A program made the translations under genes and the position numbers. 64,000 nt of DNA from Bryobacterales bacterium (GTDB taxonomy: Bacteria > Acidobacteriota > Terriglobia > Bryobacterales > Bryobacteraceae), in the NCBI GenBank assembly GCA_003166865.1, contig PMUP01000081.1, forward strand, positions 1 to 64,000, written 5' to 3'. This document shows, one piece after another, positions 37,747 to 43,802 of this stretch. Below the pieces are notes generated by a model that saw only the letters and a program-made list of their open reading frames with translations, made no database searches and was not told the DNA's origin. Numbering within the stretch: position 1 is the stretch's first letter; every line of letters starts with the position of its first letter.

Positions 37747-38517
37747 ATGAAGCTCCAGAATACGCTACTCGGTCTGATCGCCGGAGTGGTGATGCTCCAG
37801 GCGCAGTCCGCGACGCCCGATTTTTCAGGCGTGTATTATCCGATTGCGCCGTTCGGCCGGTTTGCCGGCGGCCCGGCTGCCGGGGCGAGTCAACGGCAGG
37901 GACCACCACCGAAGCCAACTGCATCGGCGCCGCTCTCGGATGGCTCCCGTGGTCGTTCGCCCGATGCGCCGTCGCTCACGCCCGAGTACATGGCGAAGTG
38001 GGAAGCGATCAGCAAAACGCGCATCGCCGGCTCGTCCGAATACGACCTGACCGCCAAGTGCCTCCCTCCCGGAATGCCCGCGATGATGAACATGGCTTAC
38101 GGCATGGAGGTGATGCAGAACAAAGACAAGATCACCTTCTTCAGCGAGCTGAACGATGCGCTGCGCCGTGTTTACCTGGACGGGCGGAAGCCGTCGCAAA
38201 AGGTGCTGGACGATCCCACCTACGCCGGCTACTCGATGGGCCATTGGGAAGGCGATACGTTGGTGGTGGAAACGGTGGCATTGCGCGACAACACGTTCAT
38301 CGAAGGGTTCACGCCGCATAGCGATCAAATGACCGTGCATGAACGTATTCGGCTCAAGGAGCCTGGGCTCCTGGAGGATCGGATCACGGTCACGGATCCA
38401 AAGGCGCTCACCAAGCCTTGGGAAAGCACGAAGACGTACCGGAAGGCGACACGGGAAAAGGAGAACGACGAGCTGCGCGAATTCGCATGCCCGGAGGGGC
38501 TGGGAGAAGCGAAGTGA
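37747..38517 (+). CDS. Secreted G-x-W-E-G-x family protein
   Basis: A 256-residue exported protein with a signal peptide ending LQAQ. Its core runs DFSGVYYPIAPFGRFAGGPA, a low-complexity Gln/Pro/Lys linker, AKCLPPGMPAMMNMAYGMEV, RVYLDGRKPSQKVLDDPTYA, GYSMGHWEGDTLVVETVALR, and ends KTYRKATREKENDELREFAC. The family is seen seven times in this window; its function is unknown. It is a tandem duplicate of the next gene (38514-39278), with which it overlaps by four bases. The operon begins with DUF6152. Confidence 0.87.
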   Translation: MKLQNTLLGLIAGVVMLQAQSATPDFSGVYYPIAPFGRFAGGPAAGASQRQGPPPKPTASAPLSDGSRGRSPDAPSLTPEYMAKWEAISKTRIAGSSEYDLTAKCLPPGMPAMMNMAYGMEVMQNKDKITFFSELNDALRRVYLDGRKPSQKVLDDPTYAGYSMGHWEGDTLVVETVALRDNTFIEGFTPHSDQMTVHERIRLKEPGLLEDRITVTDPKALTKPWESTKTYRKATREKENDELREFACPEGLGEAK

Positions 38518-39278
38518 ACGCCACGGCGCTTGTGTTGGGGTTGGCGACCGCGGCAGTGCTGTGTGCGCAGACGCCGCCGGATTTTTCGGGCGTGTACTAT
38601 CCGATCGCGCCGTTCGGCCGGTTTGTGGGCGGCCCGGCGGCCGGGGCGAGTCAGCGGCAGGGACCACCGCCGAAGCCAACTGCATCGGCGCCGCTCGCGG
38701 ATGGATCGCGGGGCCGGAGGCCGGATGAACCCTCGCTCACGACAGAGTACATGGCGAAGTGGCAAATGATCAGTAAGACTCTCATCGCCGGCTCTTCGGA
38801 ATTCGATCCGACGGCCAAGTGCCTTCCTCCGGGAATGCCCGCGATGATGAGCATGTTTTACGGAATGGAAGTGATGCAGAACAAGGGCAAGATCACTTTC
38901 TTCAGCGAATTGAACGACGCGCTGCGCCGTGTTTATCTGGACGGGCGCAAACCTGCGCAGAAGGTTCTGGACGATCCCACCTACGCTGGTTACTCGACGG
39001 GCCACTGGGAGGGCGACACGCTGGTGGTGGATACGGTGGCGATCCGCGACGACACGTTCATCGAAGGATTCACGCCGCATAGCGGTGAGATGACGGTGCA
39101 GGAGCGCATTCGATTGCTCAGCCCGGGACTAATGGAAGATAAGATCACCGTTACGGATCCGAAGGCGCTGACGAAGCCTTGGGAGACGGTGAAGACCTAT
39201 CGCAGGGCGACGCGAGAGTCCGGTACCGACGAGTTGCGGGAGTTTGCATGTCCCGAAGGATTGTCGGAAGCGAAGTAA
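38514..39278 (+). CDS. Secreted G-x-W-E-G-x family protein (tandem duplicate)
   Basis: A 254-residue protein, starting at GTG 38514 in a GTGA overlap with its neighbour. Sequence after the signal peptide is near-identical to the preceding gene: DFSGVYYPIAPFGRFVGGPA, AKCLPPGMPAMMSMFYGMEV, LDGRKPAQKVLDDPTYAGYS, TGHWEGDTLVVDTVAIRDDT. The duplication is obviously recent relative to the other family members, although the leader peptide differs. It is the last gene of the operon DUF6152-37747-38514. It converges on the NRPS-like gene, one base apart. Confidence 0.87.
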   Translation: MNATALVLGLATAAVLCAQTPPDFSGVYYPIAPFGRFVGGPAAGASQRQGPPPKPTASAPLADGSRGRRPDEPSLTTEYMAKWQMISKTLIAGSSEFDPTAKCLPPGMPAMMSMFYGMEVMQNKGKITFFSELNDALRRVYLDGRKPAQKVLDDPTYAGYSTGHWEGDTLVVDTVAIRDDTFIEGFTPHSGEMTVQERIRLLSPGLMEDKITVTDPKALTKPWETVKTYRRATRESGTDELREFACPEGLSEAK

Positions 39279-39279
39279 G

Positions 39280-42200
39280 CTAACGCCGTGCCAGCAATTC
39301 CGCGAGTTTGGACGCGAGCACATCCACGTTGGGCGGACTGAACATCGTTACATGATCGCCGGGCACGTCGATGATTTGCAGGTTGAGCGCCACTGAATCC
39401 CAACCGAGCGTAGGATCGTGGCCTAAGCCGTGCGGCCGGCTCTCCGGCCTAAAGAGAACGACCTTACCTGAGTACTCGGTGGGTACGTAGTCGTAGCTGG
39501 CGCTGTTGAGTGCTTCGTCATCGGCGAGCGACAACGGTTGGGGCGTGCTTTGGCCTCCGATTCGGGAACGCAATCGGTATCTCGCGAATTTGGCTAGCGT
39601 GGTCGCATGGGTGGAAGCCTGTTCCAGTCTCTTTCGAAGATACGGGCGGATCTCGGAAACAGGCCTTTTCCGTAAGTGGGAGAAATGCCAGCGGATCCGC
39701 TCATACCAGTGCCGGATGCGACGCATCCTGGCAAAGTTGAAGGACTCAAAGAGAACCACCAAGTCGACCGGTGTTCCGGCGTCGTGCATCTGTTGCGCAA
39801 TCTCGTAGGCCAGGTTCCCGCCGGCACACCAACCGGCCAGGTAATAGGGAGGATTGGGTTGATACTCGCGAATCCTGCGTGCGATCTTGGATGCCATTGG
39901 TTTGAGCCCCGGCAATTCGGTTTCGGGGATTTCCACGCCGATCATGGTGTGATGCGAACCGATCTTTTCCGCGACCAAACGCATACTCATTTGCGGACGA
40001 ATGAAGTAGAGAGCGGGCTGGGAGCCACTTTGGATCGGCACGATGCCCGACGGATAGCGGTCCTCGCGGCTTAAATACTCAGCAAACTGGCGGATGGTGC
40101 ATTCCTTGAAGAAGACCGAAGGCGGCACTCTCCTGTTGATGCTCTCCTCGATTTGGCTCACCAGAGCGGCGGCCTGAAGCGAGTTCCCGCCGAGGTCGAA
40201 AAAGCTATCGCAGACTCCGATGTTGCGAATGCCCAGGACTGACTCCCAAATCTGCAATAGCCAGACTTCCTCGGCATTGGCGGGCGCGATCGCCGGCGTA
40301 TCTCGCACGTCCGGTCCGCTCGGCTTCGGAAGAGCGTTTCGGTTTACCTTGCCGCTCGGGAGCAGAGGCACGCTCGCAATCGGAGTGAAGCTGGCCGGAA
40401 TCATGAAATCCGGCAGGCGCTCGGCAAGGAAATGGCGCAGCTCCAGGCTGGACACCGAACTCTCGAACTTGCACACGATATAGGCGATCAGACTTGTATT
40501 CTGAGAATCGCGCGGAACGACGACGGCTTGTGCGACGGCGGGATGCGAGCACAACGCGGCCTCGATCTCGGCCAGCTCAACGCGAAACCCGCGAATCTTG
40601 ACCTGATCATCCGCTCGTCCCAAGTATTCAATGTTCCGGTCGGACAAATAGCGGCCGAGGTCGCCTGAGCGATACAGGCGCGCTCCCGGCGTGACGCTGA
40701 ACGGATCGGAGAGAAAACGCTCAGCCGTCAAGTCAGGGCGATTCAGGTAGCCTCGGGCCAAGTGCGGGGCGCCCACATAGATCTCACCCGCCACTCCGAC
40801 GGGTACCGGATTCATCGCCTGGTCAAGAAGATAAATACGGGTATTGGCGACGGGACGGCCAATCAGCGTTTCGCGGCGGCGAATAGCTGCCGCAGTCACG
40901 TTCCACACTGTGGCGAGGGTGCCGATTTCTGAACTCGAGTAGCAATTATGCAGCTTCGCCAGAGGCATCGCGTCTGTCAAGAGGGCAATGATATCGGGCG
41001 TCAGAACGGCACCAGCCAGGCCGACTTCGCGGATGGTTCTGAGCTTCGACACATGCTTGGGCCCCAGATTGAGAATCTGTTTCAAGACCGGCGGCGGGAA
41101 CACGATGCGAGTGATTCGCTCACGCTCGATGACGTTCAGCAGTCCGTTGATGTCCTTCAGCTCCTCAGCGGAAACGATCACCAGCGGAAGACCGCACATG
41201 AGGGGAAGAAACAGGTTGGCTATGGAAAAGCCGAAGCTAAGAAACGCGTTAAGGCAGCAGATTTCATCCGGCGCATATGTGACGGCGACCAATCCGTTAA
41301 TCACGCTGCGATGAACTCCCACTACCGCTTTGGGTTTTCCGGTCGAGCCAGAGGTGTAAAGTACATAGGCCGCGCTGTCGGGCGTCGTGTTGGCAACCGG
41401 GTTCGTGGAACTGCCGGCGGGAATCTCATCAACGGATAGGATCTCAACTCCGGTTGGGACGCGGTCCCGGCATCGAGCGCTGCTGACTATCAAAGAGAGC
41501 TTAGCGTCGTGCACCATTTCGCTCAAACGCTGCGGGGGATAGCTGGGGTCCAACGGGACATAGGCGCCCCCGGCCTTGAGAATCCCCAGGATTCCCACTA
41601 CAGCCATCCACGACTGCTCCATGCAAAGCCCGACCAGAATCTCCGGGCCCACTCCGCGCCCCAGCAGGTAATGAGCGAGCCGGTTGGCTTGGCGGTTTAG
41701 TTCGCCATAGGTGATGCGCCAGTCACCATCAATCAGAGCAACTGCTTCCGGTGTTCTTGCGGCTTGTTTTTCGAACAGCTCATGGACGCAGCCCTGGGGG
41801 CAAGGCTGGTCGGTCGCGTTCCACTCGAACAAAATCTGCCGCCGTTCCTGCTCACTCAGGATTGCCAGCCGGGAAATTTGTGTTGCGGGATTTTCAGAGG
41901 CGCAGCGCAGAAGTTTCTCGAGGTGCTGTGTCAACCGCAGGATGGTCTTGTGCTCGAAGAGATCCGTCCGGTAGTTCCAATGTCCGACGAACCCGATCCC
42001 TTCGCTCGCGAGCGTGATCGCCAATCCCGGGCTGTCGTCCGGCGAGTCTCTTGGGAACAGCGAACGGGCAAGTTCATTCTGCAGTTCGGGCGCAATGACG
42101 AATGGCGCCTCACCGAGTTCACAACGGTGATCCAGGACAAGTGTCCGGACATGCTCAACCAGCTCTTCAAACGTCTGGTCGCTGGATACTTTCACCTGAA

Positions 42201-42381
42201 GCTCGCCAATTCCAATGCTGCCTTCGCCCGAATAGCGGTTCAGGAGCGCCGCCACTGCCGCCAATAGAACTGCTGGTCCAGTGTCATCCGGCAATTCGAA
42301 ACGGTGTGTCGCAATGATCGCCCTGCCTACCGGAAGCGGCTCTGGCGCGAGCTGAAGCACTGTCGCGGTAGACGACTTCAC
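39280..42381 (-). CDS. NRPS-like enzyme: partial C, A, PCP and TE domains
   Basis: A 1033-residue single-module protein. Residues about 1-175 are the second half of a condensation domain without the HHxxxDG catalytic motif. The adenylation domain (about 190-690) has VLYTSGSTGKPKAVVGVHRS near 344, YSSSE in place of YGPTE near 480, YRSGDLGRY and LPSGKVNRNALP. The carrier domain has FFDLGGNSLQAA (Ser about 733). The thioesterase has AGWCAGGNLAYE with Cys as the likely nucleophile (about 852) and a late GDHVTMF histidine. The residue aligned to GrsA Asp235 is Gly (SFGFSIANLF), so a non-amino-acid substrate is likely. GTG 42381 (GAGAGG nine bases upstream) overlaps the transporter stop; GTG 42405 is an alternative. 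Confidence 0.88.
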   Translation of the reverse strand: MKSSTATVLQLAPEPLPVGRAIIATHRFELPDDTGPAVLLAAVAALLNRYSGEGSIGIGELQVKVSSDQTFEELVEHVRTLVLDHRCELGEAPFVIAPELQNELARSLFPRDSPDDSPGLAITLASEGIGFVGHWNYRTDLFEHKTILRLTQHLEKLLRCASENPATQISRLAILSEQERRQILFEWNATDQPCPQGCVHELFEKQAARTPEAVALIDGDWRITYGELNRQANRLAHYLLGRGVGPEILVGLCMEQSWMAVVGILGILKAGGAYVPLDPSYPPQRLSEMVHDAKLSLIVSSARCRDRVPTGVEILSVDEIPAGSSTNPVANTTPDSAAYVLYTSGSTGKPKAVVGVHRSVINGLVAVTYAPDEICCLNAFLSFGFSIANLFLPLMCGLPLVIVSAEELKDINGLLNVIERERITRIVFPPPVLKQILNLGPKHVSKLRTIREVGLAGAVLTPDIIALLTDAMPLAKLHNCYSSSEIGTLATVWNVTAAAIRRRETLIGRPVANTRIYLLDQAMNPVPVGVAGEIYVGAPHLARGYLNRPDLTAERFLSDPFSVTPGARLYRSGDLGRYLSDRNIEYLGRADDQVKIRGFRVELAEIEAALCSHPAVAQAVVVPRDSQNTSLIAYIVCKFESSVSSLELRHFLAERLPDFMIPASFTPIASVPLLPSGKVNRNALPKPSGPDVRDTPAIAPANAEEVWLLQIWESVLGIRNIGVCDSFFDLGGNSLQAAALVSQIEESINRRVPPSVFFKECTIRQFAEYLSREDRYPSGIVPIQSGSQPALYFIRPQMSMRLVAEKIGSHHTMIGVEIPETELPGLKPMASKIARRIREYQPNPPYYLAGWCAGGNLAYEIAQQMHDAGTPVDLVVLFESFNFARMRRIRHWYERIRWHFSHLRKRPVSEIRPYLRKRLEQASTHATTLAKFARYRLRSRIGGQSTPQPLSLADDEALNSASYDYVPTEYSGKVVLFRPESRPHGLGHDPTLGWDSVALNLQIIDVPGDHVTMFSPPNVDVLASKLAELLARR

Positions 42382-43652
42382 TTGACGGTACCTCTCAAAA
42401 TCCACACGCCCGCGAGCGGCAGCACGGCAACGGCGGTGCAGACCGCCGAGAACCCAAAATGATCCACCGAGGCGCCAATCAGCGGGGAGACGAACGTCTG
42501 CATCAGCGAATATGCGCAGGCGAGCAAAGAGATACTAAATGCCGCGCGCCCAGGACCGAACAAATCCAGGGGAATCACATTGAGACTGCCGATGACACCC
42601 TGGCAGGCGAATAGGCTCACTGCGATGGCGGCTATCGCCAGCGACGCCGAGTGCAAGTACGGGATGAAGGCGGTAATGAGGAAGAGGGGTGTACAGAGGA
42701 CGCATATTCGCATTCTCGCCTTCAAAGCATCCGCGCCACGCCGAATCCAGCGAAACGCGAGCAAGCCGCTAAACAGTCCTCCCAGCGTGCCGAAGATGGG
42801 TGGAATCCAGGCGAAGTTCCGGTTGGCGGCCGTTTGCGTCAAGTGATGCACCTGCACCAAATAGACGGTCGTCCAGTTCAGCCATAGGATGAAGACGGTC
42901 ATGACGAGCGCGTAAGCAACCGCAACGCCCAGGAGTCGTCGATCGCGCAGCACTTTTCGAAGTGGAACTAGCGGGCCGGCAACTGCTGCGGTCCCGCTGG
43001 TTGGGATACGCCGGGCCGTGAACCACCACAGCGCGAGCCAGAGCAGTCCGAGCGATCCGGAAATCACGAATACGGAGCGCCAACCGTAGCGCGGCGCAAC
43101 CAGGGCGACAAGCAAAGGAGCCGCGACGCTTCCGATGGTTAACGTCACCGAACCGGCCGCGTTCGCCAACCCCCACTCCGAGGGTCGCATGTAGCTTGCG
43201 TTGGCTTTGGAGAGAATTGGCAGCGCACACGCTTCACCGAGCCCTAGCGAAGCACGAGAGACCAGCAGTCCTCCAAATGAAGTGGCCATACCGGTGGATA
43301 TGCTGGCCGCCGACCACATGGCGATGGCGGTTATTACTCCCGCATTCAGTCCGACCCGATCCACAAAGAGCCCTGCTAGGGGAGTCATCAGCGCATATGC
43401 TAACGAGAACGCCGAGACCAGCGTGCCATACTGCGTGTTGGAAAGATGGAAGGTTTGCTTGAGTGTGGGCGCTACCGCGGCCAGCAGTTGGCGATCGAGA
43501 AAATTGAGGACATTGGACAGTACAAAGACGCTGATAGCCAGCCAGCGCAGATTGGACACAACTCGCCGGCCAAGTCCGTCGACGGCACGGTCTGCCTCTC
43601 GCGGTGTCCTGGATTCCAGGACAGCTACGCGGTCAGGCTCCTGTATTGCCAT
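42378..43652 (-). CDS. MFS transporter, partner of the NRPS-like gene
   Basis: A 424-residue inner-membrane protein with about 12 helices. The first loop region FVLSNVLNFLDRQLLAAVAP and YGTLVSAFSLAYALMTPLAG, with LFVDRVGLNAGVITA, recall the anion:cation symporter/Spinster-like group of MFS. ATG 43652 has GGAG upstream; ATG 43670 and GTG 43694 are possible longer starts. It overlaps the NRPS-like gene by four bases (GTGA), so the two genes form an operon. Transport of the NRPS product or of its precursor is inference. The upstream region contains no recognised regulator. Confidence 0.85.
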   Translation of the reverse strand: MAIQEPDRVAVLESRTPREADRAVDGLGRRVVSNLRWLAISVFVLSNVLNFLDRQLLAAVAPTLKQTFHLSNTQYGTLVSAFSLAYALMTPLAGLFVDRVGLNAGVITAIAMWSAASISTGMATSFGGLLVSRASLGLGEACALPILSKANASYMRPSEWGLANAAGSVTLTIGSVAAPLLVALVAPRYGWRSVFVISGSLGLLWLALWWFTARRIPTSGTAAVAGPLVPLRKVLRDRRLLGVAVAYALVMTVFILWLNWTTVYLVQVHHLTQTAANRNFAWIPPIFGTLGGLFSGLLAFRWIRRGADALKARMRICVLCTPLFLITAFIPYLHSASLAIAAIAVSLFACQGVIGSLNVIPLDLFGPGRAAFSISLLACAYSLMQTFVSPLIGASVDHFGFSAVCTAVAVLPLAGVWILRGTVK

Positions 43653-43802
43653 ATCGCTCCAGCGTTCCATTAACTTAGCATGGAATAACGGCACGATAGC
43701 CCCTAACCTATGCTTCTGTCAATGGCGACAGGGCACAGTACTGTCTAAGGTGAATGGAAGGCAGCGACGGAGCACGCTACGCCGTTAGATGGGCATGGAT
43801 AC

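Follow-up and report, generated by a model that had tools for sequence, protein, structure and literature searches.

A one-module NRPS-like gene with a half condensation domain and an altered adenylation pocket, overlapping a transporter gene in a Bryobacterales bacterium

Results

On the reverse strand of the window (the whole stretch of 64,000 nucleotides that was analysed) lie two overlapping genes, encoding an MFS transporter and an NRPS-like protein, the latter in a long and intact open reading frame of 1041 codons (39280-42405; Table 1). Pfam finds in the NRPS-like protein, in this order, the end of Condensation, AMP-binding, AMP-binding_C, PP-binding, and Thioesterase, i.e. all the parts named in the original prediction: half a condensation domain (half-C), one adenylation (A) domain, one carrier, and one thioesterase (TE). 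The linked MFS gene of that prediction is also borne out, with the two genes apparently in the same operon. The 3' end of the MFS gene reads GAGAGGTACCGTCAAGTGAAG, and its TGA stop codon overlaps a GTG codon of the NRPS frame (GTGA), nine bases upstream of which is a GAGAGG. Because of this overlap and the GAGAGG, we placed the start of the NRPS gene at 42381 and, as judged from their sequence, the two genes are apparently translationally coupled.

Table 1. Features of the gene pair, with positions in the window; residue numbers of the NRPS-like protein count from the GTG at 42405
Feature	Positions	Strand	Basis or remark
Half-C-A-T-TE gene	39280..42381	-	Likely GTG start at 42381; frame open from GTG at 42405
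MFS transporter gene	42378..43694	-	PF07690, E=5e-42; GTGA overlap with NRPS gene
Half condensation domain, C-lobe only	41821..42405	-	Pfam match 41830-42021
Adenylation domain	40315..41790	-	Code GFAVGACTLK
Gly392, at GrsA Asp235 position	41230..41232	-	Two alignments
A5 motif YSSSE	40927..40941	-	Sequence and GrsA-anchored alignment
Carrier (PP-binding) domain	40072..40263	-	GGNSL; Pfam
Thioesterase domain	39283..40053	-	Pfam, TE alignment, solved match
Cys860, TE nucleophile position (GWCAGG)	39826..39828	-	TE alignment
Glu887, where 14/15 other TEs have Asp	39745..39747	-	TE alignment
His1018 of TE (GDHVTMF)	39352..39354	-	TE alignment

The Condensation match at the N terminus covers positions 394-456 of the 456 in the Pfam profile (393-456 when PF00668 was searched against the whole genome). 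No HHxxxDG motif is present in the first ~205 residues, again as originally predicted, and the protein does not have the complete condensation domain with HHxxxDG of a canonical NRPS elongation/termination module. We read these residues as a condensation C-terminal lobe that would have been internally shortened. A misplaced start codon does not account for the missing lobe, because the MFS gene fills the DNA directly upstream. Lacking its catalytic half, the half-C should not catalyze condensation. A structure model of residues 1-697 that drew on three distant rows was of unusable quality (mean pLDDT 52, with the half-C mostly <50).

As assessed by a GrsA-anchored alignment, the A domain has the A4 motif SFGFSIANLFLP, the A5 motif YSSSE, and a code that agrees at 10/10 positions with the one read by eye in the original prediction. 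The control row is GrsA itself, for which we assumed both the sequence and its code, DAWTIAAICK, and the alignment yields DAWTIAAICK for it. A Gly also faces the Asp235 equivalent of linear gramicidin synthetase when the two are aligned. The predicted Gly at this position is thus upheld, with no Asp235 in the properly aligned sequence. The pocket combines Gly235, Phe236, and Leu331, and the Lys at 517 is kept. So are YTSGSTGKPK and YRSGDLGRY, both of which we take to be core motifs, the A10 Lys, and the carrier Ser.

Relatives with an amine-less pocket were found in three other genomes: G607 and G613, from the same taxonomic family, and G317, from elsewhere in the phylum. When the specificity stretch was used as a query against the taxonomic family (E 1e-18), 8/237 genomes matched, i.e. 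its own, G613 (56%), G607 (54%), and five at 35-36%. Among 396 genomes of the phylum, three matched at E 1e-22 (its own, G317 at 41%, and G135 at 36%); a second draw gave 1/396 at E 1e-40, again G317. A four-row profile run at E 1e-35 against 399 genomes of the class had five matches, in its own genome, G607, G613, G884, and G540. G135 was rejected as a member on account of its code (ADWVVSLADK), G884 and G540 because both have D236, and two loci from a scan of named genome contigs (38 and 31%) because their A domains have other codes. The family is present in 2/23 genomes of the genus of G607 and in 1/15 genomes of the order of G317. The genome sets of these searches overlap and cover this phylum, to which plasmids and a single scan of named genome contigs were added; in what was searched, the half-C-A-carrier family is rare and patchy.

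The relatives are open frames of 780-843 residues with an N-terminal half-C stretch, an A domain, and a carrier, which are 48, 50, and 39% identical to the whole window protein. No TE was found in any of the three by Pfam or alignment, so that conservation does not extend to the A-T-TE layout; the conserved unit is half-C-A-carrier, apparently outside peptide assembly lines. The shortened N-terminal stretch can be aligned across all four members and is called Condensation by Pfam in three, above the cut-off in the window protein only. Under the cut-off, the start of relative L031 matches PF00668 positions 222-279 and relative L022 matches positions 391-455; in relative L030, Pfam finds no Condensation match. 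Besides that of the window, the codes are GFAVGARTAK, GFAVGARTVS, and GPAVGSSCCK, which gives F/P at 236, A/S at 301, and L/A/V/C at 331 over the four members, with both acidic pocket positions lost in all. In the G613 relative (L030 6980-9376), the A10 Lys is replaced by Ser, so adenylation may be impaired there, which hints at decay of this one copy.

The G613 and G607 copies are 74% identical over 779 codons. As estimated by a simple counting method, with dS near 1.0, their dN/dS is 0.148 for the main part of the A domain and 0.116 for its other part, 0.101 for the carrier, and 0.257 for the half-C, which is the least constrained part, yet constrained. Between the window and L031, identity is 32% in the half-C, 33% in the carrier, and 62% in the main part of the A domain; synonymous sites are near saturation, and the corresponding ratios (0.16-0.66) were not used. 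A gene with a CxxCH motif, noticed by eye, lies directly upstream of the G607 and G613 copies; its G607 version is without a Pfam match. Also nearby are genes for a class III aminotransferase and an aldehyde dehydrogenase, identified by Pfam in G607. The G317 neighbourhood has an Oxidored_FMN plus Pyr_redox gene and an O-methyltransferase. No common neighbours of the family were seen among these three contexts, and none holds a relative of the window MFS.

In a tree of 36 A domains, GrsA among them, the four-member family (support 100/100) is nested in a 16-row clade (100/99), the nearest row outside which is L009, from the same genus, weakly attached (83/65). The 12 other rows of the clade have D236 (12/12), S301 (12/12; retained in the family by L020), and D331 (10/12). 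The window A domain is thereby placed with A domains of the xDxxxSxxDK, YGSSE type, with which it has in common the clade, V278 (in 9/12 of the other rows), and the missing A5 Pro, replaced in all 12 by Ser (11) or Ala (one). It differs from them in that D236/D331 are changed to Phe/Leu, in its Gly at 235, and in a half-C that replaces the full condensation domain. One of the 12, L040, likewise has Gly at 235. The original prediction was therefore right that the A5 motif is YSSSE, but this is less unusual than it implied; the real peculiarities are the Gly235/Phe236/Leu331 pocket and the half-C. The parent clade probably consists of beta-amino-acid type A domains, its D236 code presumably resembling that for beta-alanine. 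Because a literature search did not find a beta-alanine code of the D236 type in print, and the likeness is our assumption, we infer the loss of an amine anchor from conservation.

A different Gly235 A domain (code GILHFSVGPQ, A5 YSVKE) is encoded in two Acidobacteriota records (L017 9742-13362 and L018 6226-13491); it lacks Lys at 517 in the alignment and sits on a long branch (1.47).

The TE has the nucleophile elbow (GWCAGG, of the form GxSxG or GxCxG) and the His (GDH) of a type I thioesterase. The predicted Cys is thus present, but it is not rare, because among 15 other TEs, taken from loci that were retrieved for their resemblance to the query rather than at random, nine have Cys (L002 and its close relative L011, L010, L014, L016, L008, L021, L041, and L026) and six have Ser (L012, L009, with GWSFGG at the aligned elbow, L013, L005, L003, and L015). 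Cys as a special mark of the window TE was therefore rejected. The count leaves out L025 and L032 (the L009 locus again), L011_4471 (a fragment), and the query's own copies (L001, L019, and L033); a weak L018 match (<15 bits) was left unaligned. The best solved sequence match of the window TE, AB3403 (4zxh), also has GWC. Cys TEs are commoner in this sample than is suggested by the wording of PMC6668435, the accessible part of which calls a catalytic Cys less common. The same part describes ObiF1, whose TE has a catalytic Cys and an Asp on another strand; the acid of the window TE triad is uncertain.

The best NCBIfam model for the MFS, TIGR00893 (D-galactonate transporter subfamily), gives 145.7 bits against a cut-off of 395, and the siderophore exporter models MxcK and BcbE give 53.0 and 23.5 bits, respectively. 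The MFS is matched in 31/61 genomes (its own included) at E 1e-60, by relatives 38-49% identical; for the NRPS gene, the same 61 genomes hold nothing above 41% besides itself at E 1e-150. The window MFS is an ordinary, widespread type recruited here. Given this wide occurrence and the score below cut-off, export of the product, which the MFS may carry according to the original prediction, is not indicated.

The same genome contains a second MFS and A-T-TE pair on contig C35 (L045 8302-12550). Its A-T-TE consists of an acyl-CoA-ligase-type A domain, a carrier, and a Cys TE and follows an MFS that resembles the aromatic acid/H+ symporters (TIGR00895; 333.8 bits, which is below the cut-off). The C35 A-T-TE is matched in 27/237 genomes of the taxonomic family (its own included) at E 1e-120. 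In eight neighbourhoods of such relatives (L064 without its upstream side, L065 with an upstream side that stops at the contig end), no frame of at least 200 residues matches either MFS at E 1e-8. The pair, which the original prediction proposed to seek in other genomes, thus does not look conserved, and the idea was rejected. A third freestanding A-T-TE in this genome (L044 7993-10620, contig C12; code VDYIFSFQHK, Ser TE) adjoins a uvrC-like gene (named by eye), with no MFS relative seen beside it.

Two genomes of the same genus, G001 and G003, have relatives of the nifS-type, mnmA-type, acyltransferase, and VWFA-type genes of the window (named by eye) in the same order, with one extra frame before the last of the four in G003. 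The other window genes tried have no match in G001 or G003, which places the MFS-NRPS pair in a variable stretch. On the forward strand, 37747-39278 holds two paralogues that adjoin and overlap; neither has a Pfam match, and the proteins are 83% identical over 250 residues.

Discussion

We favor the reading, in our judgment reasonably likely, that the window gene encodes a freestanding one-module thiotemplate enzyme activating a non-amino acid. Because the equivalents of Asp236 and Asp331 are both lost, its A domain, descended from the D236/D331 type, would probably adenylate a carboxylic acid that carries no amino group, whether a hydroxy, a keto, or a simple acid, and this would be loaded on the enzyme's own carrier. 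The Cys TE could then release the acid by hydrolysis, self-joining, or joining to another nucleophile. The half-C probably persists as a packing platform of the kind that A domains normally have; the probable role of the coupled MFS is transport of the acid or the product. A non-peptide product, as originally predicted, is probable. Gly235 is also the kind of small residue (Ala/Gly) seen in alpha-hydroxy-acid A domains, a mark that is weak on its own, with precedents in the accessible part of PMC11253843. A changed pocket is no proof of an amine-free substrate, however, and the TE is present in the window member only, with Glu at the usual Asp position.

Alternatively, another, full NRPS of this genome might receive an acyl or hydroxy-acid unit from the enzyme in trans, with the half-C as a docking surface. 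When PF00668 was sought at E 0.001 across the four family-bearing genomes, that of the window had, in addition to the half-C, four full condensation domains, two on contig C10 and one each on C71 and C3, as such a partner would have. However, none is on the window's contig, C58, and the protein has its own TE. Moreover, the three other genomes, listed as 89-95% complete, yielded no full condensation domain: G317 has no PF00668 match beyond its own half-C, and G607 and G613 have none, their own diverged half-C having escaped too. An unseen or diverged condensation domain is conceivable, though unlikely in all three. The partner NRPS that would have spoken against the original prediction is therefore conceivable for the window genome and finds no counterpart in those of the relatives, and we regard supply in trans as unlikely.

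That an amino acid is still activated, and held in another way, would suit the clade of probable amino-acid A domains and the Lys kept at 517, but it is distinctly improbable considering that none of the four members keeps an acidic residue at either pocket position.

Kinship with aryl-pyruvate A-T-TE enzymes, which join two aromatic alpha-keto acids into furanones or quinones, was the original proposal. It fits the A-T-TE order without condensation catalysis, here with an additional half-C, and the missing amine anchor. The absence of the A5 Pro fits as well, in that the keto-acid enzyme StsA has Met in place of a conserved Pro in the accessible part of PMC11253843, a residue that we infer to be the A5 Pro. 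However, code position 1 is Gly and not the Val that, in the accessible part of PMC10316625, indicates enzymes activating aromatic alpha-keto acids. The A domain belongs, in addition, to the xDxxxSxxDK-type clade, where the A5 Pro is absent anyway, and the relatives are without TE. We therefore did not retain this proposal, which appears very unlikely. Equally doubtful is a decaying, non-functional remnant of an ordinary C-A-T-TE enzyme, to which the half-C, its low identity to that of L031, and the A10 Ser of the G613 copy would lend themselves, against a long intact frame, an N terminus similarly shortened in four genomes, and dN/dS of 0.10-0.26 per domain between G607 and G613.

A bolder scenario, to which we attach very slight credence, is that a C-lobe-A-carrier family left the peptide line and that its amine-binding A domain, probably for a beta-amino acid, moved to the matching hydroxy or simple acid. 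The Cys TE, gained in this genome, would then cyclize or oligomerize the hydroxy acid, so that one protein, with a transporter of its own, would make a beta-lactone or a small polyester.

Most of what is known about A-domain substrate codes comes from assembly lines. For a one-module enzyme activating a non-amino acid, the joint loss of both acidic residues in a family where no full condensation domain was found in 3/4 genomes makes a clean test of the change from amino to non-amino substrates. The family also offers a test of what a condensation C-lobe does alone.

Among known systems, AB3403 and ObiF1 are multidomain NRPSs with condensation domains. Their TEs have Cys in the nucleophile elbow, as does the window TE, which differs by its Glu at the usual Asp position. 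The fungal A-T-TE quinone/furanone synthetases have the A-T-TE order and the lack of Asp235 in common with the window enzyme; they have Val at position 1, whereas the window enzyme has Gly and an extra half-C, and they are set apart by description, as are RalA, AtrA, and EchA by the description of their class. Enniatin is made by a depsipeptide line. The hydroxy-acid A domain of its synthetase, EnSynA1, has Gly at code position 1, as in the window (accessible part of PMC11253843). HcaB, for which the accessible part of PMC10949194 proposes a keto acid as substrate, nevertheless retains Asp235. Finally, VinN-type beta-amino-acid domains hold the amine by D235, as described in the accessible part of PMC11253843, whereas the parent clade of the window A domain, with its D236, would represent a differing solution.
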